Source of the DNA: a virus
Direction: 5' to 3' (one strand)
IMG/VR virus record: IMGVR_UViG_3300024346_000194
Location: 1-38,814 of that record
Length of the DNA: 38,814 nucleotides
Shown here: positions 1,279 through 33,372 of the stretch, piece by piece
How the letters are laid out: every line of letters begins with the position of its first letter
Numbering within the stretch: the first letter of the stretch is position 1
Program-made: the position numbers and the translations under genes
Notes under the pieces: generated by a model
Told to the model about the DNA's origin: nothing
What the model saw: only the letters and a program-made list of their open reading frames with translations
Databases searched by the model: none

Positions 1279-3693
1279 ATGATTTATAGCAATTACGTAG
1301 GTTCGTTTCCTAGTCAGGTAGTATCTGATGAAGAAAAGCAAAGTTATGATTATGGTTACGCCGTAGGACGAGCTATTGAAGGAGAGTGGTTTTCTGGAGA
1401 TAGAGGTGGACTAGGTAATAGGTATCAAAACAGTTGGTTAAATTTTCATAGACTAAGATTATATGCTAGAGGTGAACAACCTGTTCAAAAATATAAAGAT
1501 GAATTATCTATAAATGGTGATTTGTCTTATTTAAATTTAGACTGGAAGCCAGTACCTATAATACCTAAATTTGTTGATATTATAGTTAATGGTATGTCTC
1601 AAAAAATATTTGACATAAAAGCTTTTGCTCAAGATCCAGAGTCTTTAAAGAAAAGAACAAAGTATGCAGATTCTATAATGAGAGACATGTATGCTAAAGA
1701 GATAATACAAGCTACTAATCAAGCTACAGGTATGGATTTCTTTAATAGTAATGATCCTAATAATATACCCGAGAGTCAACAAGAATTAGATCTTCATATG
1801 CAGTTGAGTTACAAGCAATCAATTGAAATAGCTGAGGAAGAGGCTATTGAAAACGTTTTAGCTTTTAATAAATATGACTTAATAAAGAAAAGATTAATTC
1901 AAGATTTAACAATAATAGGTATAAGTGCTGTTAAAACAGACTTTAATTTAGCCAATGGTGTTACAATAAATTACGTTGATCCAGCTAATTTAGTTTACTC
2001 TTACACAGAAGATCCTAATTTTGACGACATATATTACGCTGGTGAAGTTAAGTCTATAAGTTTAGTTGAATTAAAAAAACAATTTCCTGGTTTATCAGAA
2101 GAAGAGTTAAAAAAAATAGAAAAATTCCCTGGTGATGCTAATTACACTAGAAACTTTTATTCTCAACAAGATTCTCAAAATCAAATTCAAGTATTGTATT
2201 TTGAATATAAAACATATTCAAATCAAATATTTAAAATAAAACAAACAGAGCAAGGATTAGAAAAAGCTTTAGAAAAGCCAGATACATTTAATCCTCAACC
2301 AAACGATAATTTCGAAAGAGTAGGTAGAGCTATAGAAGTTTTATATACTGGTGCTAAAATACTGGGCCACGAAATGATGTTAGAGTGGAAAATGTCAGAA
2401 AATATGACAAGGCCTAATTCTAATTTAACCAAAGTTAATATGAATTATTCTATATGTGCACCACGCATGTATAAAGGTATGATAGAATCAACAGTTAGCA
2501 GAGTAACTGGTTTTGCTGATATGATTCAATTAACTCATTTAAAGTTACAACAAGTGTTGTCTAGAATGGTGCCAGACGGTGTTTTTGTAGATGTAGATGG
2601 ACTAGCTGAAGTTGATTTAGGTAATGGAACAAACTATAATGCTCAAGAAGCACTTAACATGTACTTCCAAACAGGTTCTATAGTTGGTAGGTCTATGACA
2701 CAAGATGGTGATTTGAATAGAGGCAAAGTACCTATTCAAGAACTACAGACAGGTAGTGGAGGTGCTAAAATACAAAGTTTAATACAAACGTATCAATACT
2801 ATTTACAAATGATACGTGATGTAACGGGGCTTAATGAAGCAACAGATGCCAGTACTCCTGATGCTCATGCTTTAGTTGGTTTACAGAAAATGGCAGCAGC
2901 AAATTCTAACACAGCGCTTAGACATGTAATGCAAGGTGGTTTATATTTAACACTAAGAACTTGTGAAAATATATCATTAAGAATAGCTGATGCTTTAGGA
3001 TATCCTTTAACCAGAGCTGCATTAATAGACTCTATATCATCTTACAATACAGGCACTTTAGAAGAGTTGCAAGAAAAAAATCTTCAAGATTTTGGTATAT
3101 TTTTAGAACTAGAACCAGACGAAGAAGTAAAAGCTCAACTAGAACAAAACATACAAATAGCTCTTCAAAGCGGAGGTATAGATTTAGATGATGCAATAGA
3201 TATTAGACAAGTTAAAAATATGAAACTTGCTAATGCTCTGTTAAAGCAAAAGAGAAAACAAAAAGCAAAACAAGATCAAGCTAATCAACAAGCTAATATT
3301 CAAGCACAGGCGCAAGCAAATTCTCAAGCATCACAAGAAGCTATTGAAGCAGAAATGCATAAACAGCAGGCTCTTGCTGAGACTACAATTCAAATAGAAA
3401 CATCTAAAATGCAACTTGAAATAAAAAAGATGCTACAAGAAGCCGAGATAAAGAAAGGTTTAATGGCTGAAGAGTTTCAATACAATATGCAATTAGCTGG
3501 AATAAAATCTAAAGCTGAGACTCAAAAAGAGTCTGAAATAGAAAATAGAAAAGACAATAGAATACAAATGCAAGGTACTCAAGAGTCTAAATTAATAAAC
3601 CAAAGACAAAACAACACGTTGCCACAGGAGTTTGAATCCGCTGGATTTGATAACTTAGGTGGTTTTGGATTAGAACAATTTGATCCTAGATAA
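1279..3693 (+). CDS. Portal protein
   Basis: Forms the dodecameric portal ring at the capsid vertex, through which DNA is packaged and ejected. The 804-aa length and the position directly after terL (no spacer) fit crAss-like and related Bacteroidota podoviruses. Conserved-looking blocks include the N-terminal DWKPVPIIPKFVDIIVNG near residue 88, the central YVDPANLVYSYTEDPNFDD near 232, and a long helical C-terminal region. Residues about 645-760 are very rich in Gln, Lys, Glu and Ala (QANIQAQAQANSQASQEA), predicting a long coiled coil that would form the portal barrel or crown. The C terminus ends in a Gly/Phe-rich tail. Assignment is from sequence flavour and gene order; no search was run. 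Confidence 0.88.
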   Translation: MIYSNYVGSFPSQVVSDEEKQSYDYGYAVGRAIEGEWFSGDRGGLGNRYQNSWLNFHRLRLYARGEQPVQKYKDELSINGDLSYLNLDWKPVPIIPKFVDIIVNGMSQKIFDIKAFAQDPESLKKRTKYADSIMRDMYAKEIIQATNQATGMDFFNSNDPNNIPESQQELDLHMQLSYKQSIEIAEEEAIENVLAFNKYDLIKKRLIQDLTIIGISAVKTDFNLANGVTINYVDPANLVYSYTEDPNFDDIYYAGEVKSISLVELKKQFPGLSEEELKKIEKFPGDANYTRNFYSQQDSQNQIQVLYFEYKTYSNQIFKIKQTEQGLEKALEKPDTFNPQPNDNFERVGRAIEVLYTGAKILGHEMMLEWKMSENMTRPNSNLTKVNMNYSICAPRMYKGMIESTVSRVTGFADMIQLTHLKLQQVLSRMVPDGVFVDVDGLAEVDLGNGTNYNAQEALNMYFQTGSIVGRSMTQDGDLNRGKVPIQELQTGSGGAKIQSLIQTYQYYLQMIRDVTGLNEATDASTPDAHALVGLQKMAAANSNTALRHVMQGGLYLTLRTCENISLRIADALGYPLTRAALIDSISSYNTGTLEELQEKNLQDFGIFLELEPDEEVKAQLEQNIQIALQSGGIDLDDAIDIRQVKNMKLANALLKQKRKQKAKQDQANQQANIQAQAQANSQASQEAIEAEMHKQQALAETTIQIETSKMQLEIKKMLQEAEIKKGLMAEEFQYNMQLAGIKSKAETQKESEIENRKDNRIQMQGTQESKLINQRQNNTLPQEFESAGFDNLGGFGLEQFDPR

Positions 3694-4950: not shown

Positions 4951-6393
4951 ATGAGTTTAAACAAACAATTTGGGAGTATAATCCCATCTCAATCACAAGA
5001 AATATTAAACAGCAACTACCTACAGTGGACTGATAAGGCTGGTGCTGATTTTGTAGATTTTGCACAGCAATATCTACCTGAAGTATATGAACAAGAAGTA
5101 GAGCGTTATGGAAACAGAACGTTATCTGGATTCTTAAGAATGGTTGGCGCTGAAATGCCAATGACTTCTGATCAAGTAATTTGGTCTGAACAAAACAGAC
5201 TACACATTGCATATGACGGACTTACGCCTGCTTATGGAACTAGTAACGTTATTGCATTTACTGGAACACCAGCTGATGTAATAAATGTTATTTCTGTTGG
5301 AGCAACTGTTGTAGTAATGGACAATTTTGGAGCTGAAGTAAAATGCTATGTTAGCGCGTCAGTTCCTGGTGCAGCTGGAACAGGGCAAATAACTGCTTTA
5401 CCTTATACGGCTAACACTATTGAGCTTGCTGGATTATCAGGTGTTGTTAAAGTATTTGTATATGGTTCTGAATACAAAAAAGGTTCTTCTACACCTAATT
5501 ATTCAGCTACTCAAACAGATGGATACATTAGTGTTGATCCTCAGTTTACTCAATTTTCTAACTCACCTATCATAATCAGAAACAAATACGTTGTAAACGG
5601 ATCTGATATGGCTCAAATCGGTTGGGTTGAAGTTGCAACTGAAGATGGAACTTCTGGATATTTATGGTATTTAAAAGCTGAATCTGAAACAAGATTACGT
5701 TTTGAAGATTATTTAGAAATGTCATTAGTAGAAGGTGAAGTTGCTACTGGAGCTGGTGTAGTTGCTGCTAAAATTAATGGTACAGAAGGTATGTTCGCTG
5801 CTATTTCAGAAAGAGGTAATGTGAATACAGGATTTACTGCTGCTGCAGGAATTGATTCTTTTGATGCTATTTTGAAAAATTTAGATACTCAAGGAGCGAT
5901 TGAAGAAAACATGTTGTTTTTACAAAGACAAACTGCTTTGGATTTTGACGATATGTTAGCTTCTATTTCTGGTGGATACGCTGGAGGTACTGCTTTTGGA
6001 TTATTTGAAAATTCTGAAGAAATGGCTTTAAACTTAGGTTTTAGCGGATTCCGTAGAGGATCTTACGACTTCTATAAGACAGATTGGAAATACTTAAATG
6101 ACGCTTCTACAAGAGGCGCTATGGTAGGACCTTCTTCTATTGAAGGTGTATTAATTCCTGCTGGAACTTCTACAGTTTATGATCAAATTCTAGGAACAAA
6201 CATTAGAAGACCATTCTTACACGTGCGTTACAGAGCGTCTCAAGGAGATGACAGACGTATGAAGTCTTGGTTAACTGGTTCTGCTGGTGGTGCATTTACA
6301 TCTGATCTTGATGCTATGGAAGTAAACTTCCTATCTGAAAGATGTTTAGTTGTACAAGCTGCTAACAATTTCGTATTGTTCAAAGGATTATAA
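4951..6393 (+). CDS. Major capsid protein
   Basis: Main shell protein, presumably HK97-fold. The 480-aa length, position after the scaffold and N-terminal block (YLPEVYEQEVERYGNRTLSG, then FLRMVGAEMPM and DQVIWSEQNRLH) match major capsid proteins of crAss-like and related Bacteroidota phages as I know them. Residues 95-185 are rich in Gly, Ala, Val and Thr and look like an inserted beta domain; the C-terminal half has FGLFENSEEMALNLGFSGFR and FLHVRYRASQGDDRRMKSW. Codon use shifts towards more GGA, GCT and GTT than the neighbours, as expected for a highly expressed gene. A hairpin follows 25 bases after the stop, which could limit readthrough so that capsid message exceeds the downstream genes. 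Confidence 0.85.
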   Translation: MSLNKQFGSIIPSQSQEILNSNYLQWTDKAGADFVDFAQQYLPEVYEQEVERYGNRTLSGFLRMVGAEMPMTSDQVIWSEQNRLHIAYDGLTPAYGTSNVIAFTGTPADVINVISVGATVVVMDNFGAEVKCYVSASVPGAAGTGQITALPYTANTIELAGLSGVVKVFVYGSEYKKGSSTPNYSATQTDGYISVDPQFTQFSNSPIIIRNKYVVNGSDMAQIGWVEVATEDGTSGYLWYLKAESETRLRFEDYLEMSLVEGEVATGAGVVAAKINGTEGMFAAISERGNVNTGFTAAAGIDSFDAILKNLDTQGAIEENMLFLQRQTALDFDDMLASISGGYAGGTAFGLFENSEEMALNLGFSGFRRGSYDFYKTDWKYLNDASTRGAMVGPSSIEGVLIPAGTSTVYDQILGTNIRRPFLHVRYRASQGDDRRMKSWLTGSAGGAFTSDLDAMEVNFLSERCLVVQAANNFVLFKGL

Positions 6394-7294: not shown

Positions 7295-8239
7295 ATGGCG
7301 ATAAACGTAGATCAAGTTTATAAAACAATCTTGTTAATCATAAACAAAGAGCAAAGAGGTTATTTAACTCCTTCAGAGTTTAACAAGCTAGCAACTCAAG
7401 TTCAACTAGAAATAGTTGATACTTATTTTGAGACTATTAATCAGCAAATGCGTGTGCCACAAAATGATAGTGAATACGGTGATAGATATAAAAACGTACA
7501 AGAAAAACTAGATGTTTTTAAAACCATAGGCTCTTGTGCTTATACAGCACCTAATAATACAGTTCCAGGTTATTTTACAACCCCCTCTTCTTCAGGTGTA
7601 GCATCAGGAACTCAAACTATAGCTACCTTAACAAGTGAGGTATCATACCCTCTTACAACAATAACTCAAGCTCAAGTTGAAACTAGTTCTGTTTTTGTAA
7701 CTTTAGAAACACCAACAGGTAGTGCTGGTACTGCTTACGCCAACTTCACTATAACAGGTGGCGCGCTTCAGTTAACTTCAGGCGCTATAGCTACTGGTAA
7801 TACATTAAGAATAGTTTTATATCCAAAAGATTTTTATAAACTAGGTACTGTTTTTTATAAAGAAGATAGAGCCGTTGAGATGGTTAGAAGAAACGAATTA
7901 GCATTAATGAAACTATCTCCAATAACAAAGCCTTCAGAATACTTTCCTGTCTTTGTGTATGAAAACTCAAGAATAATAATACACCCTCAAACTATAAACT
8001 CATCTATTGAAGCCACATATATAAGAAAACCATCTGACGTGATTTGGAATTTTTCTTCTACAGCTGGTTATTATGTTTGGGATCCAGCTAATTCTGTTGA
8101 TTTTGAATTAGATATAACAGAACAAACAAATGTTATATTACAAATATTACAATATGCAGGTATTATTATAAAAGATCCTATGATAATTCAAGCAGCTACA
8201 GCAGAAATACAGCAGGAAAAACAAAACGAAAGAAACTAA
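7295..8239 (+). CDS. Ring/collar protein 1 (head-tail connector)
   Basis: The 314-aa protein begins with a block characteristic of short-tailed Bacteroidota phages: INVDQVYKTILLIINKEQRG, YLTPSEFNKLATQVQLEI and then DTYFETINQQMRVPQN. In crAss-like virions proteins of this family form a ring below the portal. Residues about 85-175 are a Thr/Ser/Gly-rich beta insertion (SSSGVASGTQTIATLTSEV), followed by the more conserved FYKEDRAVEMVRRNELALMK and SSIEATYIRKPSDVIWNFSS. It follows a long hairpin, and its stop is six bases before the next ring gene, so the two are probably co-translated. The family assignment is fairly strong; the exact ring position is inferred. Confidence 0.72.
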   Translation: MAINVDQVYKTILLIINKEQRGYLTPSEFNKLATQVQLEIVDTYFETINQQMRVPQNDSEYGDRYKNVQEKLDVFKTIGSCAYTAPNNTVPGYFTTPSSSGVASGTQTIATLTSEVSYPLTTITQAQVETSSVFVTLETPTGSAGTAYANFTITGGALQLTSGAIATGNTLRIVLYPKDFYKLGTVFYKEDRAVEMVRRNELALMKLSPITKPSEYFPVFVYENSRIIIHPQTINSSIEATYIRKPSDVIWNFSSTAGYYVWDPANSVDFELDITEQTNVILQILQYAGIIIKDPMIIQAATAEIQQEKQNERN

Positions 8240-8245
8240 TATAAC

Positions 8246-9514
8246 ATGGCAATACAACCAACAAACGATGGACTTATAACTGAAAATGCTCAGCAATATT
8301 ACTCTGGCGCTCAAGGATTTAGAGCTTTATCTAATAATGCTAATGAACAAGAATTTGTAACAACTTTTAATACAGAATTATATTTAGGTAGTTGGAATCA
8401 AAGTAATGTTAATTACGGTTTAAATAATTTTAAAGTATACACTAGTCAAACAGGTTTACCTAATTCTTATACAGAATGGTTAACTGAAATGTCAGTTGGC
8501 TCTGACAATAGAACTTTAAAACTAGCTACCGGACCAGGTTCTAACGCTTATGTTGTTGTTCAATTAACCATATTAACAGGCGGTAATTACGGTCAAACAG
8601 AAGCTCAAAAAGCATATGGTGAAGCTACTGAAGATAATTATGGTAGTTATCAATACGTTAAGCTAAACGATATTATAAACAATTTTCAAGTTGGATACGT
8701 TGGTCAAGATAAAATATTACCACGCGTAAAAAGAAGTGATTTAATATTTTTTGCTAAAAGGTCAATGCAAGAATTTAGCTATGACACATTAAAAAGTATT
8801 AAGTCAGCAGAACTAACTGTTCCACCAACCTTAACATTAGTGTTACCACAAGATTATGTTAATTATGTTAGATGTTCTTGGATAGATAATTTAGGTGTTA
8901 AACATATAATATATCCAACAAATAATATAACCACAAGCCCTTATTACACTCAAATTCAAGACTCTACAGGTATACCAACTCAAGATAATTTTGGCAATGA
9001 TATAGAAGGAACTTCAATAACTCAAGATAGATGGCATAACTCTGACTCTAATTTAGTAGATGGAGTTGTTCAGACCGGTAGTGATTTTTCGGAATCAGAC
9101 TGGTATGGCTATGGTTATGGTTGGGGTATAACTGGCGGCTACGGATACGGTCAGTTATATGGTATGGACCCTCAAGTATCACAAGGTAATGGTTGGTTTA
9201 ATATAAACGAAAGAGAAAATAAACTCTCTTTTTCTAGCAACTTAGTTGATAAGTTAATTGTTCTTGAATACGTATCAGACGGATTAGCTTATGATTTAGA
9301 TAGCAGAGTACCTAAAATGGCTGAAGAAGCTATGTATGCCGCTATATTATATTCATTAGTATCTGGAAGAATAAATCAACCAGAATATGTAGTACAAAGA
9401 TTAAGAAAGGATAAAATATCTAAACTAAGAAATGCTAAAATAAGGTTATCAAATATAAAAATAGATGAAATATCTCAAGTAATGAGAGGTAAATCTAAAT
9501 GGATTAAACACTAA
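8246..9514 (+). CDS. Ring/collar protein 2 (tail hub connector)
   Basis: The 422-aa protein partners the previous ring protein. The recognisable core starts near residue 138 with KLNDIINNFQVGYVGQDKIL, then RVKRSDLIFFAKRSMQEFSY and TLVLPQDYVNYVRCSWIDNL, a motif string seen in ring/tubular proteins of crAss-like and related phages. The first ~130 residues are a separate beta-rich region. Residues 288-308 form a striking Gly-Tyr-Trp loop (YGYGYGWGITGGYGYG) that could be surface-exposed or pack in the tail hub. The C-terminal helical part (SRVPKMAEEAMYAAILYSLV, then RLRKDKISKLRNAKIRLSNI) is strongly basic. The role is inferred from family resemblance and order. Confidence 0.7.
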   Translation: MAIQPTNDGLITENAQQYYSGAQGFRALSNNANEQEFVTTFNTELYLGSWNQSNVNYGLNNFKVYTSQTGLPNSYTEWLTEMSVGSDNRTLKLATGPGSNAYVVVQLTILTGGNYGQTEAQKAYGEATEDNYGSYQYVKLNDIINNFQVGYVGQDKILPRVKRSDLIFFAKRSMQEFSYDTLKSIKSAELTVPPTLTLVLPQDYVNYVRCSWIDNLGVKHIIYPTNNITTSPYYTQIQDSTGIPTQDNFGNDIEGTSITQDRWHNSDSNLVDGVVQTGSDFSESDWYGYGYGWGITGGYGYGQLYGMDPQVSQGNGWFNINERENKLSFSSNLVDKLIVLEYVSDGLAYDLDSRVPKMAEEAMYAAILYSLVSGRINQPEYVVQRLRKDKISKLRNAKIRLSNIKIDEISQVMRGKSKWIKH

Positions 9515-9856: not shown

Positions 9857-11197
9857 ATGGCAGAAGCTAAAAACAGTTTCATTAAGTCTAGAATGAACAA
9901 AGACTTAGATGAAAGATTAATTCCAAATAACGAATACAGAGATGCTTTAAATATAGCTGTATCTAGATCAGAAAGTAGTGATGTTGGCGCTGTTGAATCT
10001 ATATTGGGTAACTCTTCTACAGCTGTAAAGCCTGAAAGTAATCACCATATAATAGGTCTTTACTCTGATGAAACAAATAATAAATTATATTATTTTAGAA
10101 CAAACCACGCTAAAACCAAGGAAAACGCACCTTTATCTGCTATTTGCACTATAGGTTATTTAAATACATTAAACAACACGAACGTGGTTTTAGTTGAAGG
10201 TTCTTTTTTAAACTTTTGTAGCGAAGACTTTGTAAACGGTATAAGCTTAATTGAAAACCAATTGTTTTTTACAGACAATAGAAATCAACCAAGAAAAATA
10301 AACGTAGAACAAAAGTTAGGTTATTATACAAATGAAGATCAAATATCTGTTGCTAAATTTGCACCATACATACCACCTTCTTTTATTAACTTAAGAGCAG
10401 GAGCTTCTTATTATGCTAACTTTATAAATACAATAAAGCCTTCTACAATGTCGGATGCTCAAGATCCACCAATTGTACAAATAGGTATATACAAATTATC
10501 ACAGAACAACTTAAGTGTTAAAAAATATAGAAATGGCGATGTAATACCAGAGTCAACTACGTTGTCTGATTGGAATCAAAAAAATACAAATCAAATAGGT
10601 TCTTGGTGTTATTATGCTAATTATAACGGTAACGGTATAACGTATGGTCTTCTTTATAACAAATGGGCTATTATAGATGCTAGAGGTTTAGCTCCAATTG
10701 GTCACACTATACCTTCATTAGCTGATTGGAATAATATTATTTCAGCAGGAACAACAAATGCTAATTTATATAAAAGCACTGATTTGTGGAGTACAGGACC
10801 TGGAAGCAATCAAATAGGTTCAGATGTTTTACCTGCTGGATTTAGAAACAATACAACTACTAGTTCAGATGGATTTATTAACTTAACAACAGAATCTAGA
10901 TTTTGGACAAGTGACGCTATATCAAATAGTAGTGCTCCTTATATTAAATTTGATAACTCAGCAACTATTGACGTATCTGGTACGTCACCTACTGTTGACG
11001 GTTATTCTGTTAGAGTTTTAAGAGATCAAAATTACACAGGTTGGAACGGTGATCCAGATTATTTATCAGATAAATTTGTAAAATTCTCTTACAGGTTTAA
11101 ATTTGATGATAACGAGTATTCTACTGTAGCTCCTTTTAGTCAAGATGTTTTTATACCTTATCAAGAAGGTGAGTTCGTTAATGACGACGAAAACTAA
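9857..11197 (+). CDS. Tail stabilisation protein, N-terminal part, with inserted FISUMP domain
   Basis: The 446-aa product begins like the large stabilisation proteins of crAss-like phages (KNSFIKSRMNKDLDERLIPN, then EYRDALNIAVSRSESSDVG), which wrap the connector below the portal. Residues about 222-390 form a different domain: GDVIPESTTLSDWNQKN, SWCYYANYNGNGITYGLLYN, RGLAPIGHTIPSLADWN, LPAGFR, RFWTSD and VRVLRD. This is the full motif string of the FISUMP family (Fibrobacter succinogenes major paralogous domain). The stabilisation sequence resumes at FVKFSYRFKFDDNEYSTVAP. The frame is ended by a TAA at 11195-11197, yet the same frame continues open into the next gene with expected stabilisation sequence. 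It may therefore be one gene broken by a stop, or two cooperating polypeptides. Confidence 0.75.
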   Translation: MAEAKNSFIKSRMNKDLDERLIPNNEYRDALNIAVSRSESSDVGAVESILGNSSTAVKPESNHHIIGLYSDETNNKLYYFRTNHAKTKENAPLSAICTIGYLNTLNNTNVVLVEGSFLNFCSEDFVNGISLIENQLFFTDNRNQPRKINVEQKLGYYTNEDQISVAKFAPYIPPSFINLRAGASYYANFINTIKPSTMSDAQDPPIVQIGIYKLSQNNLSVKKYRNGDVIPESTTLSDWNQKNTNQIGSWCYYANYNGNGITYGLLYNKWAIIDARGLAPIGHTIPSLADWNNIISAGTTNANLYKSTDLWSTGPGSNQIGSDVLPAGFRNNTTTSSDGFINLTTESRFWTSDAISNSSAPYIKFDNSATIDVSGTSPTVDGYSVRVLRDQNYTGWNGDPDYLSDKFVKFSYRFKFDDNEYSTVAPFSQDVFIPYQEGEFVNDDEN

Positions 11198-30878: not shown

Positions 30879-31029
30879 ATTTATCTTGAATTTCAATTAG
30901 TTCTTTATATTTAATTTTACCTCTCATTTCCCAACTCCATTTCCACCATTTATCTATTTGTCTTTCAGCATATTTTTGTCTAGCTAAATTTTTTGTTTGT
31001 TTAGGATTATTCCTACTGTTTCGTCGCAT
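30856..31029 (-). CDS. Small basic Trp-rich protein
   Basis: The 57-aa product starts at ATG 31029, inside the end of the upstream nuclease gene, and overlaps the next small gene by 23 bases. It is strongly basic with a cluster of tryptophans: KQTKNLARQKYAERQIDKWW, then KWSWEMRGKIKYKELIEIQD. It is helical and may bind nucleic acid or membranes; no family is recognised. The case for coding is uninterrupted sensible sequence filling the gap between two genes, with overlapping starts and stops on both sides. Confidence 0.6.
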   Translation of the reverse strand: MRRNSRNNPKQTKNLARQKYAERQIDKWWKWSWEMRGKIKYKELIEIQDKYEIKVYG

Positions 31030-31445
31030 TCTTTTTGATTTTGTGGTTTATATAGTGTGTATCCTGGAAATTGTCTAACTATTAATTGTTTAAATAATTT
31101 CCATCTCATAGGGAAAGACTCATTAGCTCTACCTTTAGTTTCAATTATAAAATTATCACCAATAAAATCTGGTGTATATTTTATAGGTAATATACGTTTA
31201 CAACCTCTATTTTTATAATCACCTTTACCGTTTGACTGCCTTTCATATACTTCGTTTTCAAAATGAAAACCGTTTAATAAAACAAATGTTTCTCCTTCAT
31301 ATTTACATTTTATTTTAGCTTTTTTTAAAGCCATATACATATAACGCTCTAAACCTGATGCAAAATTAATACCATCATATGTTACTCTTTTTGATACAAC
31401 AGGTCCACGTTTTTTGTTTCTTCTTTTATAAGGTATTTTTTTCAT
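30984..31445 (-). CDS. PD-(D/E)XK endonuclease (DUF1064/T7 endonuclease I-like)
   Basis: The 153-aa nuclease has the motif set of the endonuclease I/DUF1064 group: a basic N terminus (MKKIPYKRRNKKRGP), YDGINFASGLERYMYMALKK with E33, then IKYTPDFIGDNFIIETKGRA with D93, E102 and K104 forming the PD-ExK centre. Such enzymes resolve branched phage DNA or cut host DNA at nicks. It ends with TAG, and its start overlaps the upstream MazG-like gene by 20 bases. Together with the GIY-YIG-MazG fusion nearby, a part in host DNA breakdown or in clearing replication junctions is plausible; junction cleavage is the classical role. Confidence 0.78.
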   Translation of the reverse strand: MKKIPYKRRNKKRGPVVSKRVTYDGINFASGLERYMYMALKKAKIKCKYEGETFVLLNGFHFENEVYERQSNGKGDYKNRGCKRILPIKYTPDFIGDNFIIETKGRANESFPMRWKLFKQLIVRQFPGYTLYKPQNQKECDETVGIILNKQKI

Positions 31446-31722
31446 AATGTATTCCTTCGTTACCGTTTTGTCCTATGATGTTCATTCTGTTCATCATTGA
31501 TTCTTCTATTTCATCTGTTAAACATCTTCTAGCAGCTTCTATATACAGTAAAGCATCCATAAGTTCTTCTTGAACATCAACTAAAAATCTATCAAGATCT
31601 TTTTTTTGACCTTGTATTTCTTCCATCATTGTTGCGCCGTATTTTTTTTGACCTATTAAGCTACGCTTATCCATTTTAGCTAATACAGCTTGTACTATCT
31701 TATCTTCTGTTTTTATTTTCAT
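31426..31722 (-). CDS. MazG-like nucleotide pyrophosphohydrolase-type protein (short)
   Basis: The 98-aa, all-helical protein has KKYGATMMEEIQGQKKDLDR followed by FLVDVQEELMDALLYIEAAR. The latter resembles the dATP/dGTP pyrophosphohydrolase-type or MazG-like phage proteins (QEELMDAL, with E52, E53 and D56 as likely metal ligands). These hydrolyse nucleoside triphosphates to monophosphates plus pyrophosphate, or act as regulatory relatives. Its ATG overlaps the stop of the preceding fusion gene (TAATG), so two all-alpha pyrophosphatase-type proteins are coupled. It is shorter than classical MazG and lacks the full EExxE...ExxD pair, so activity is uncertain. Confidence 0.6.
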   Translation of the reverse strand: MKIKTEDKIVQAVLAKMDKRSLIGQKKYGATMMEEIQGQKKDLDRFLVDVQEELMDALLYIEAARRCLTDEIEESMMNRMNIIGQNGNEGIHYEKNTL

Positions 31723-32495
31723 TATAGTGTGTTTTTTACAAAAGTTCCATTAATCATTTTACCTTTTCTTTTAGCTATTTCATTGTAAGCATAGTCTATA
31801 CAATCTTCTATTTTCATATCTTCTAAAGTAGCTAAGTTAGTTAAAACAACTACAATATCACCAATAGCATCATATATTTCTTTTCTATCTTTTTTTAACA
31901 AAGCTTGAGCTAATTCACCTGATTCTTCCATTAGCTTAACGTATTGTGTATGTGAATTACCTTCAGCAGTTATACCTCTAACTTCAGCCCATTCTCTTAT
32001 TAAGTTAAACCTAGATATTTCTGGATCGCTAGAAGGACTATGTTTTGGATTTAAAAAAGACTCATAAAAAGCTTTGTTGTATATAAAACATCTTTCGTTG
32101 TCAAACATAGAAGATTTTGCATTTGCCATTATCCATTTTATAGTTTCTGTTGTTAGCTTAAACTCGCCAAGATTTGTTTTCCATTTTAACCCAACGTTGT
32201 CCATTAATCTTCCTTTAAGCTTATTTAAAGGGCATGGAAAAGTTGAAGTTTGCTCTGTTGCGTTTATTTTCATTTTATTTAATATTGGATTTAAATTATT
32301 ATATTTATGAAGATCAATTTTATAGCCGTAAGACTTTTGAAGTTCTATTTCACGGTCTGATATATAATTTATATCTTCTGACTGTTCAAGAACTTCGTAC
32401 TCATTCTCCTTATAGCCTTGTATAAGGGTTACTCTAGTATTAAGATTACGCGTAACACCAATCTTTTTACCTGGTATGTGATATATATAATACAT
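31722..32495 (-). CDS. GIY-YIG nuclease fused to MazG NTP pyrophosphohydrolase
   Basis: The 257-aa protein has three parts. Residues 1-70 resemble a GIY-YIG nuclease: YYIYHI for the first motif, KIGVT for the second, R21 (LNTRV) as the catalytic Arg, and E49 (DREIELQKSYGY) as the metal-binding Glu. Residues 80-165 are an unassigned linker or domain (NVGLKWKTNLGEFKLTTETI). Residues 170-250 are a MazG domain with E190-E191-x-x-E194 (KLMEESGELAQAL) and E206-x-x-D209 (KEIYDAIGD). It would couple DNA cutting to dNTP hydrolysis. It lies four bases after the thymidylate-synthase-fold gene and is coupled to a second MazG-like gene. The MazG call is strong; the GIY-YIG call is good but the active site is weaker than in typical members. 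Confidence 0.75.
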   Translation of the reverse strand: MYYIYHIPGKKIGVTRNLNTRVTLIQGYKENEYEVLEQSEDINYISDREIELQKSYGYKIDLHKYNNLNPILNKMKINATEQTSTFPCPLNKLKGRLMDNVGLKWKTNLGEFKLTTETIKWIMANAKSSMFDNERCFIYNKAFYESFLNPKHSPSSDPEISRFNLIREWAEVRGITAEGNSHTQYVKLMEESGELAQALLKKDRKEIYDAIGDIVVVLTNLATLEDMKIEDCIDYAYNEIAKRKGKMINGTFVKNTL

Positions 32496-32498
32496 ATT

Positions 32499-33140
32499 TT
32501 ATAGTTTATCGTTATACAAATGCATATTGTGCGCGTGATGATAATACCAACCAACGTCAATAGACAATCTTTCTGCGATCATTTGTTGTAATGATGAAAA
32601 TTGATATTGATCATTACAAAAACCGTACCAGATGTCATTAGAACGCATATAAACAGACATACAAAGCTTATTGTTTATAATTGTAAACTGAACGGCATAT
32701 GTACAAGGAGTATCTTTTTTATACTTGCTATGTTCTTTACAGTCATATATACTTATAGCGGCATGCCTAGTGTTAGGATTATTTTTTAGCTTTTCACAAA
32801 CATAATCTATTTGAGCCTTACGCTTCCATTGATAACCATAATTTGAATTAACATTTCCGTATTCATCAGCCATACGATTCCATATAGGTGGTATTTTACC
32901 ATATAATTCACCAAGCTTTTTAATGTTAGGATCACCAGATAAATACCATTGCCATTCGGCTTCGGCATATTTGTGACTCCATTTTCTATATTTGTTTTTA
33001 ATGTGATTATCTAACGGATCTTCAATTGTAAAACCTACATTAAATAAAGCTTTAGTATTGTCAAAATCTAAACCTTCTGTTCTTAATTCGTGTAATATAC
33101 AGTTAAAAGCTTCGTTTGCTGTTAAAAATTTACTTCTCAT
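32499..33140 (-). CDS. Thymidylate-synthase-fold enzyme, probable dCMP hydroxymethylase
   Basis: Transfers a one-carbon unit from methylene-tetrahydrofolate to C5 of a pyrimidine dNMP. From ATG 33140 it is 213 aa. Family motifs: EAEWQWYLSGDPNIKKLG, NVNSNYGYQW, catalytic C146 (TPCTYAVQF), RSND at 167-170 and HNMHLY near the end. The stretch MRSNDIWYGFCNDQY aligns without gaps to T4 gp42 dCMP hydroxymethylase (MRSNDVVFGFRNDY) as I remember it. That puts D177 at T4 Asp179, the residue that replaces the dUMP-selecting Asn of thymidylate synthase and favours dCMP. It stops soon after HLY, about 30-45 residues shorter than relatives. The start was chosen because ATGAGAAGTAA overlaps the upstream stop; an earlier ATG (33170) would add 10 residues. 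Thymidylate synthase remains the alternative. Confidence 0.75.
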   Translation of the reverse strand: MRSKFLTANEAFNCILHELRTEGLDFDNTKALFNVGFTIEDPLDNHIKNKYRKWSHKYAEAEWQWYLSGDPNIKKLGELYGKIPPIWNRMADEYGNVNSNYGYQWKRKAQIDYVCEKLKNNPNTRHAAISIYDCKEHSKYKKDTPCTYAVQFTIINNKLCMSVYMRSNDIWYGFCNDQYQFSSLQQMIAERLSIDVGWYYHHAHNMHLYNDKL

Positions 33141-33372
33141 ATTTTTTATAATAATATTTATAATATTCAAATATTTTACCCCACAGTTCTCTAGGATTAA
33201 ATACTTCTGGTGATCTATTTATTTTTTTATTTATTTTTATTTCTATATACCAAAAAGTAAAATTTTCTTTACAAAAAGGTGATATATATATACCGTTATT
33301 TATACACCATCTATATGCTTTAAATTCTTCAGGAGTATATTGATAACCATTTGACTTTTTTTTTACTCCCAT
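33130..33372 (-). CDS. Small basic protein, unknown
   Basis: The 80-aa, Lys- and Tyr-rich protein contains YQYTPEEFKAYRWCINNGIY, then FCKENFTFWYIEIKINKKI and FNPRELWGKIFEYYKYYYKK. It overlaps the primase-helicase stop at its start (ATGGGAGTAA) and the thymidylate-synthase-fold gene at its end, so it is translated in the same operon. There is no zinc-finger or nuclease motif, although the two cysteines and the basic character would permit DNA binding. The family is not recognised. Confidence 0.6.
   Translation of the reverse strand: MGVKKKSNGYQYTPEEFKAYRWCINNGIYISPFCKENFTFWYIEIKINKKINRSPEVFNPRELWGKIFEYYKYYYKKYEK

Follow-up and report, generated by a model that had tools for sequence, protein, structure and literature searches.

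A conserved single-ORF fusion of GIY-YIG and MazG domains, linked to a dCMP-type thymidylate-synthase-family gene in uncultured marine phages

The 38.8-kb virus record IMGVR_UViG_3300024346_000194 (referred to here as the window, i.e. the whole stretch of 38,814 nucleotides that was analysed) carries an ATG-initiated ORF of 257 aa on its minus strand at positions 31722–32495. In a comparison of 123 distinct loci, this ORF occupied a fixed place in a cassette with the order ssb, primase-helicase, small ORF, thymidylate synthase (TS)-family gene, fusion ORF, 98-aa ORF, DUF1064 nuclease, small ORF, NrdB and NrdA. The features identified in and around the fusion ORF are as follows:

30984–31445, minus strand: DUF1064/phage Holliday-junction-resolvase-like nuclease (Pfam DUF1064, E value 2.6e-7; PHROG resolvase, E value 5.8e-10), downstream of the fusion in 116/116 loci
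31426–31722, minus strand: conserved 98-aa ORF, downstream of the fusion in 115/116 loci
31725–32018, minus strand: predicted MazG/PRA-PH-type NTP pyrophosphatase domain, residues 160–257 (Pfam, PHROG, PDB profile and conservation)
32046–32252, minus strand: middle domain with no known relative, residues 82–150 (structural model and conservation)
32316–32495, minus strand: predicted GIY-YIG superfamily domain, T5orf172/MUG113-like, residues 1–60 (profiles, AlphaFold2 topology and conservation)
32499–33170, minus strand: putative TS-family enzyme of the dCMP type (Pfam TS, PDB matches and alignment of the Asp column)

The genes are tightly packed, with the TS-family gene (whose start is more probably the ATG at 33140 than the TTG listed) ending 3 nt upstream of the fusion, and the start of the 98-aa ORF overlapping the fusion stop codon by one base (TAATG).

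An earlier note, made from the letters of the window, had placed a GIY-YIG nuclease and a MazG pyrophosphohydrolase in one protein. This is borne out by profile searches and by the size and conservation of the protein family, and the fusion is genuine. A scan of IMG/VR for the same fusion in other phages, as the note had suggested, returned 256 relatives; among the best 80 of these, nearly all span residues 1–257, with 64–98 % identity. The N-terminal, middle and C-terminal parts form a single ORF in 232 of 240 matched ORFs, the eight exceptions being cut by a contig end or frame-broken (several on contig L084), and in 78/80 loci of a divergent set, where the remaining two are ORFs of the N-terminal and middle parts that are likewise cut or broken. 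A chance ORF or wrong reading frame is ruled out by the more than 250 relatives, mostly full length, and two genes joined by assembly or annotation by the presence of one ORF in practically all of them. Outside this set, the unnamed viral protein A0A516MJS7 (248 aa) displays 48 % identity to the fusion across its whole length, while two further unnamed viral proteins, A0A516LX97 and A0A6J5N7S4, gave a fold match to the N-terminal part only. No other partner of the N domain was found among the 80 best loci returned by the N-domain profile or the 80 returned by a divergent N domain, all of which had the same architecture, and the fusion had no match to the PADLOC defence models. Matches among genome contigs proved to be metagenome-assembled genome (MAG) contigs that contain this phage gene (in one case frame-broken), and they are no evidence of host use. 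Contig L084, which was binned to a Verrucomicrobiales MAG, has a frame-broken fusion and a piece of NrdB beside bacterial-looking genes; this copy is either a decayed insertion or a misassembly.

The N-terminal motifs pointed out in the earlier note (YYIYHI, KIGVT, R21 and E49) are as described and are conserved across 224 distinct relatives, with Y2, Y5, K11-I12-G13, R21 and E49 at near or full invariance; R21 and E49, an Arg and a Glu of catalytic type, are invariant in 224/224 sequences, as are K11, G13, Q26 and Y65. Pfam matches to the copy in the window are weak and below cut-off (T5orf172, E value 0.086; MUG113, E value 0.06); however, the curated cut-offs are passed by relatives L054, L185, L186 and L229 (MUG113: 3.4e-5 in L185, 3.6e-5 in L186, 4.2e-5 in L229; T5orf172: 8.2e-5 in L229, 1.0e-4 in L185, 1.9e-4 in L054). 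The GIY-YIG model itself gave 0.048 for L185. The AlphaFold2 model (mean pLDDT 88 over residues 1–158) places strands at 2–7 and 11–15, a helix at 18–25, a strand at 34–39 and a helix at 42–55; strand-strand-helix-strand-helix is the order expected for a GIY-YIG core. Foldseek against viral models returned A0A516MJS7 first, consistent with its shared architecture, followed by proteins named as GIY-YIG at weak scores (E value 0.19–0.32, probability 0.72–0.94); it gave no fold match between the N domain and GIY-YIG structures in the PDB, and tblastn of the N domain against the annotated phage collection gave no match at a useful E value. Taken on sequence, residues 1–60 are best assigned to the T5orf172/MUG113 branch of the GIY-YIG superfamily.

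The domain is short (~60 residues) and has Lys in place of Tyr in its YIG motif (KIG), two features that would fit a domain that is no longer a nuclease and instead binds DNA or nucleotides, positioning the MazG domain at the replication complex. We regard this as very unlikely given the invariance of R21 and E49, and given that Odn of phage ICP1, an active nuclease with a T5orf172 domain, also departs from the canonical motif yet keeps its catalytic Arg and Glu (PMC8263062).

The segment between the two named domains had been described as an unassigned stretch of about 85 residues; it is in fact about 100 residues long (61–160) and comprises a linker and a folded domain (82–150). This middle domain is modelled confidently by AlphaFold2 (block pLDDT about 90–95) and has conserved residues at W105, W121, N125 and S129 and a signature Y139-N140-K141. 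No credible relative was found in Pfam, among PDB sequences or folds, or in phages (tblastn), and a scan with the middle domain returned the fusion family only. Within the linker that joins the GIY-YIG and middle domains, a part modelled at low confidence, Met75 (32271–32273) is retained by 211/224 relatives; translation beginning there might yield a shorter protein lacking the nuclease domain.

That the middle domain has no other known home would suit an origin as a domesticated homing endonuclease: a free-standing GIY-YIG/T5orf172 gene would have settled next to the TS gene and then merged with a MazG gene already in place, the middle part being its old DNA-recognition domain. TS genes are known sites of GIY-YIG homing enzymes, as with the td intron of T4, which we count in favour of such an origin. 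T5orf172 domains are also found in putative phage homing endonucleases (PMC8263062). Against this, the fusion sits at one place in essentially all relatives rather than being patchily distributed, and a homing ancestry would account for the origin of the protein and not for its current function; we consider it a very unlikely explanation.

The C-terminal domain passes the Pfam cut-offs for both MazG (PF03819: E value 2.7e-6, 28 bits against a cut-off of 22) and PRA-PH (PF01503: E value 3.4e-5, 24.6 bits against 21.3). It matches PHROG MazG-like families (best E value 2.8e-31), and its profile finds PDB entry 1vmg (E value 4.2e-8). The earlier note had read a MazG domain with full EExxE and ExxD motifs; the domain and an intact EExxE stand, but the second acidic motif reads DxxxD (D209-A210-I-G-D213). 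At position 210, where ExxD usually has its Glu, the relatives have Ala, Gly or Ser, and the residue just before it is an invariant Asp. Since E190, E191, E194, D209 and D213 are all invariant in the 224 distinct sequences, the acidic cluster appears to be kept with a shift of one residue, and similar D-rich second motifs are present in sibling proteins from phages of Aeromonas, Brochothrix, Streptococcus and Acinetobacter. Phage MazG-like proteins of PHROG 715/1992 and HTH-MazG fusions of Streptococcus phages have a C-terminal pyrophosphatase domain of the same kind, sharing EExxE, the D-rich second motif and an RKGxMIxGxFVK-like C-terminal end; unlike the fusion, they lack the GIY-YIG and middle domains, and some have an HTH-like domain instead. 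Matching MazG-like domains were found in 1335 phage records, most of them without known cytosine modification, so a specificity for dCTP cannot be read from the family.

The gene directly upstream encodes a TS-family enzyme (Pfam TS, E value 2.8e-28) that in the PDB matches the CMP hydroxymethylase MilA best and TS next, with the T4 dCMP hydroxymethylase also scoring high. Asn at TS residue 177 goes with uracil substrates and Asp with cytosine substrates; replacing Asn177 by Asp shifts the substrate of TS from dUMP to dCMP and is a mark of contigs from modified-cytosine phages (PMC5175136, PMC8670742), and the residue after the catalytic Cys is a second discriminating position (PMC8670742). 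Alignment with other phage enzymes places an Asp at the Asn177 position of the upstream enzyme; the catalytic Cys is present and, in the TS type found in the window, is followed by Thr (Cys-Thr instead of Cys-His). The Asp177 motif was readable in 115/116 TS copies, the remaining copy being a truncated ORF, and is of either the RSNDIWYGFCND or the RSADVFLGLPYD type; Asp was present in every readable copy, and in 80/80 copies of both the divergent sample and a reverse sample.

These motifs belong to two TS types with a mutual identity of 24 %, which alternate on the fusion tree with 14 changes on the best tree (11 counting branches with SH-aLRT of at least 90, and seven at 95), compared with ~56 when the labels are shuffled. 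As Asp177 is always retained through these swaps, it is the cytosine-type active site, to judge from sequence, and not one enzyme lineage that is conserved beside the fusion. The nearest annotated relatives of the longer TS type, in contrast, have Asn177 in 3/3 readable cases. A common leader before both TS types was considered as a regulatory element and rejected because it coincides in part with the end of the ORF before it. Elsewhere, Enterococcus phage vipetofem has a relative of the TS in the vicinity of a gene for beta-glucosyltransferase, and in MW202657 an NTP-PPase gene adjoins a gene annotated ‘pyrimidine hmase’. Bacteroides phage BF503P2 (L406) has two different genes annotated as dCMP hydroxymethylase (5124–5930 and 8004–8684), the product of one of which displays 46 % identity to the TS-family protein of the window.

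Linkage of the two genes is close to complete. The TS-family gene is directly upstream of the fusion in 104/106 loci with enough flank and nearby in 80/80 loci of the divergent sample (found via the N domain), and the fusion is present in 79/80 loci of the reverse sample (found via the longer TS), the remaining locus being cut by a contig end; the three samples overlap and were all drawn from phages with the same gene order, which means that these counts are not independent. Because the cassette from ssb to NrdA is wholly syntenic, linkage is not in itself proof of joint function.

A general nucleotide-salvage role for the fusion must be weighed, in which host DNA is broken down by the nuclease whether modified or not, the MazG domain has a broad or house-cleaning activity (on dUTP, damaged dNTPs or ppGpp), and the protein supplies dNTPs together with ribonucleotide reductase and the TS-family enzyme. 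The adjoining ribonucleotide reductase genes, the wide occurrence of MazG-like domains in phages without known cytosine modification and the failure to find a modification kinase (see below) all argue for such a role. It leaves unexplained why only Asp-type TS genes are found through repeated swaps and why the 28 near-complete relatives have no second, ordinary TS; a single TS-family match was obtained in 26 of these, and the other two are a contig with a TS gene at both ends and a genome with one split TS gene. We consider salvage an unlikely reading, though one deserving serious attention.

The fusion occurs in uncultured marine phages with relatives among the phages of Flavobacteriia. The portal gene of the window (1279–3693) matches those of podoviruses of Flavobacterium, Cellulophaga, Tenacibaculum and Maribacter and of one uncultured genome (about 42–52 % identity among the matches listed), and a crAss-type muzzle domain is present. 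In the examined parts of three podovirus cousins, no fusion or dCMP-type TS is annotated; two of the three have stand-alone pyrophosphohydrolases and one has ThyX. In the structural region of the window, the ORF at 9857–11197 has a Fib_succ_major domain (Pfam, E value 1.3e-17). A 69-kb relative (G007; L242–L245) encodes GroEL- and GroES-like proteins, a DNA ligase and a sigma-like factor, and its NrdB and NrdA genes are separated by an additional gene; no gene for a DNA polymerase was recognised in it.

A replacement pathway for a modified base normally needs a kinase. Neither the T4-type dNMP kinase (PF21448) nor the AAA_18 kinase (PF13238) was found in 16 records (the window and 15 relatives of 58–71 kb each). 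The same records lack matches to family A DNA polymerase (PF00476) and carbamoyltransferase (PF02543), and no glucosyltransferase was noticed in the examined part of one relative; all of these negative results count against a cytosine-exclusion role.

In T4, EndoII (denA), the gp56 dCTPase/dUTPase and the gp42 dCMP hydroxymethylase are separate proteins, and the destruction of dCTP and the cutting of ordinary host DNA are thus jobs of different polypeptides. Like T4, the phages studied here have a GIY-YIG nuclease domain, a pyrophosphatase domain of the all-alpha NTP class and a TS-family enzyme of the dCMP type, all three as predicted from sequence. They differ in that the nuclease and pyrophosphatase domains are fused, in that these are of the T5orf172/MUG113 branch and the MazG/PRA-PH type, respectively, and in that the T4-type dNMP kinase was not found in the records scanned. 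The parallel with EndoII and gp56 drawn in the earlier note hence holds in part: it gains from the dCMP-type TS-family gene, in the role of gp42, adjacent in essentially all relatives, while the nuclease domain falls in the T5orf172/MUG113 branch and the ExxD motif is altered.

ICP1 Odn (Gp88) offers a second comparison, as a chimeric phage protein with a T5orf172-type GIY-YIG domain and a catalytic Arg and Glu, and shows that T5orf172 domains can belong to active nucleases (PMC8263062). Its domain order is the reverse of that of the fusion, its partner is a RepA_N DNA-binding domain and its role is a different one, the cutting of a satellite's replication origin (PMC8263062). PRA-PH domains co-occur with TS domains in contigs of modified-cytosine phages (PMC8670742), and the MazG domain of the fusion also matches PRA-PH.

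Weighing these points, we think that there is a good chance, just short of even, that the three-part fusion works with the upstream dCMP-type enzyme in a T4-like cytosine-exclusion system; cytosine modification and both activities of the fusion are what we infer. In such a system, the TS-family enzyme would, going by its Asp177, make 5-hydroxymethyl- or 5-methyl-dCMP. The MazG domain would convert ordinary dCTP to dCMP, barring plain cytosine from new phage DNA, and the dCMP so released would feed the upstream enzyme. The GIY-YIG domain would cut DNA with unmodified cytosine, i.e. that of the host. A more far-reaching version is possible, if somewhat doubtful: that one polypeptide both destroys dCTP and cuts DNA containing cytosine, its middle domain either linking the two activities or reading modified cytosine, and that a large uncultured group related to podoviruses of Flavobacteriia may modify cytosine without a phage kinase or glucosyltransferase of known kind.

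Both domain families are known; what is new, as far as we could find, is their combination with an orphan middle domain and the linkage to a dCMP-type enzyme. The architecture is already in databases as A0A516MJS7, which matches the fusion over its full length and is listed without name or function, and we found no description of it, or of its linkage to a dCMP-type enzyme, in the open-access literature searched.

The analysis amounts to a prediction, drawn from sequence, that cytosine is modified in the DNA of a widespread group of uncultured marine phages, and it offers one gene with which to check this. If the nuclease-pyrophosphatase fusion acts as proposed, it would be a compact answer to a problem for which T4 uses two proteins. 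As for the orphan domain in its middle, this may represent a new sensor for modified cytosine. The fusion together with an Asp177 TS would also provide a function-linked marker for finding such phages.
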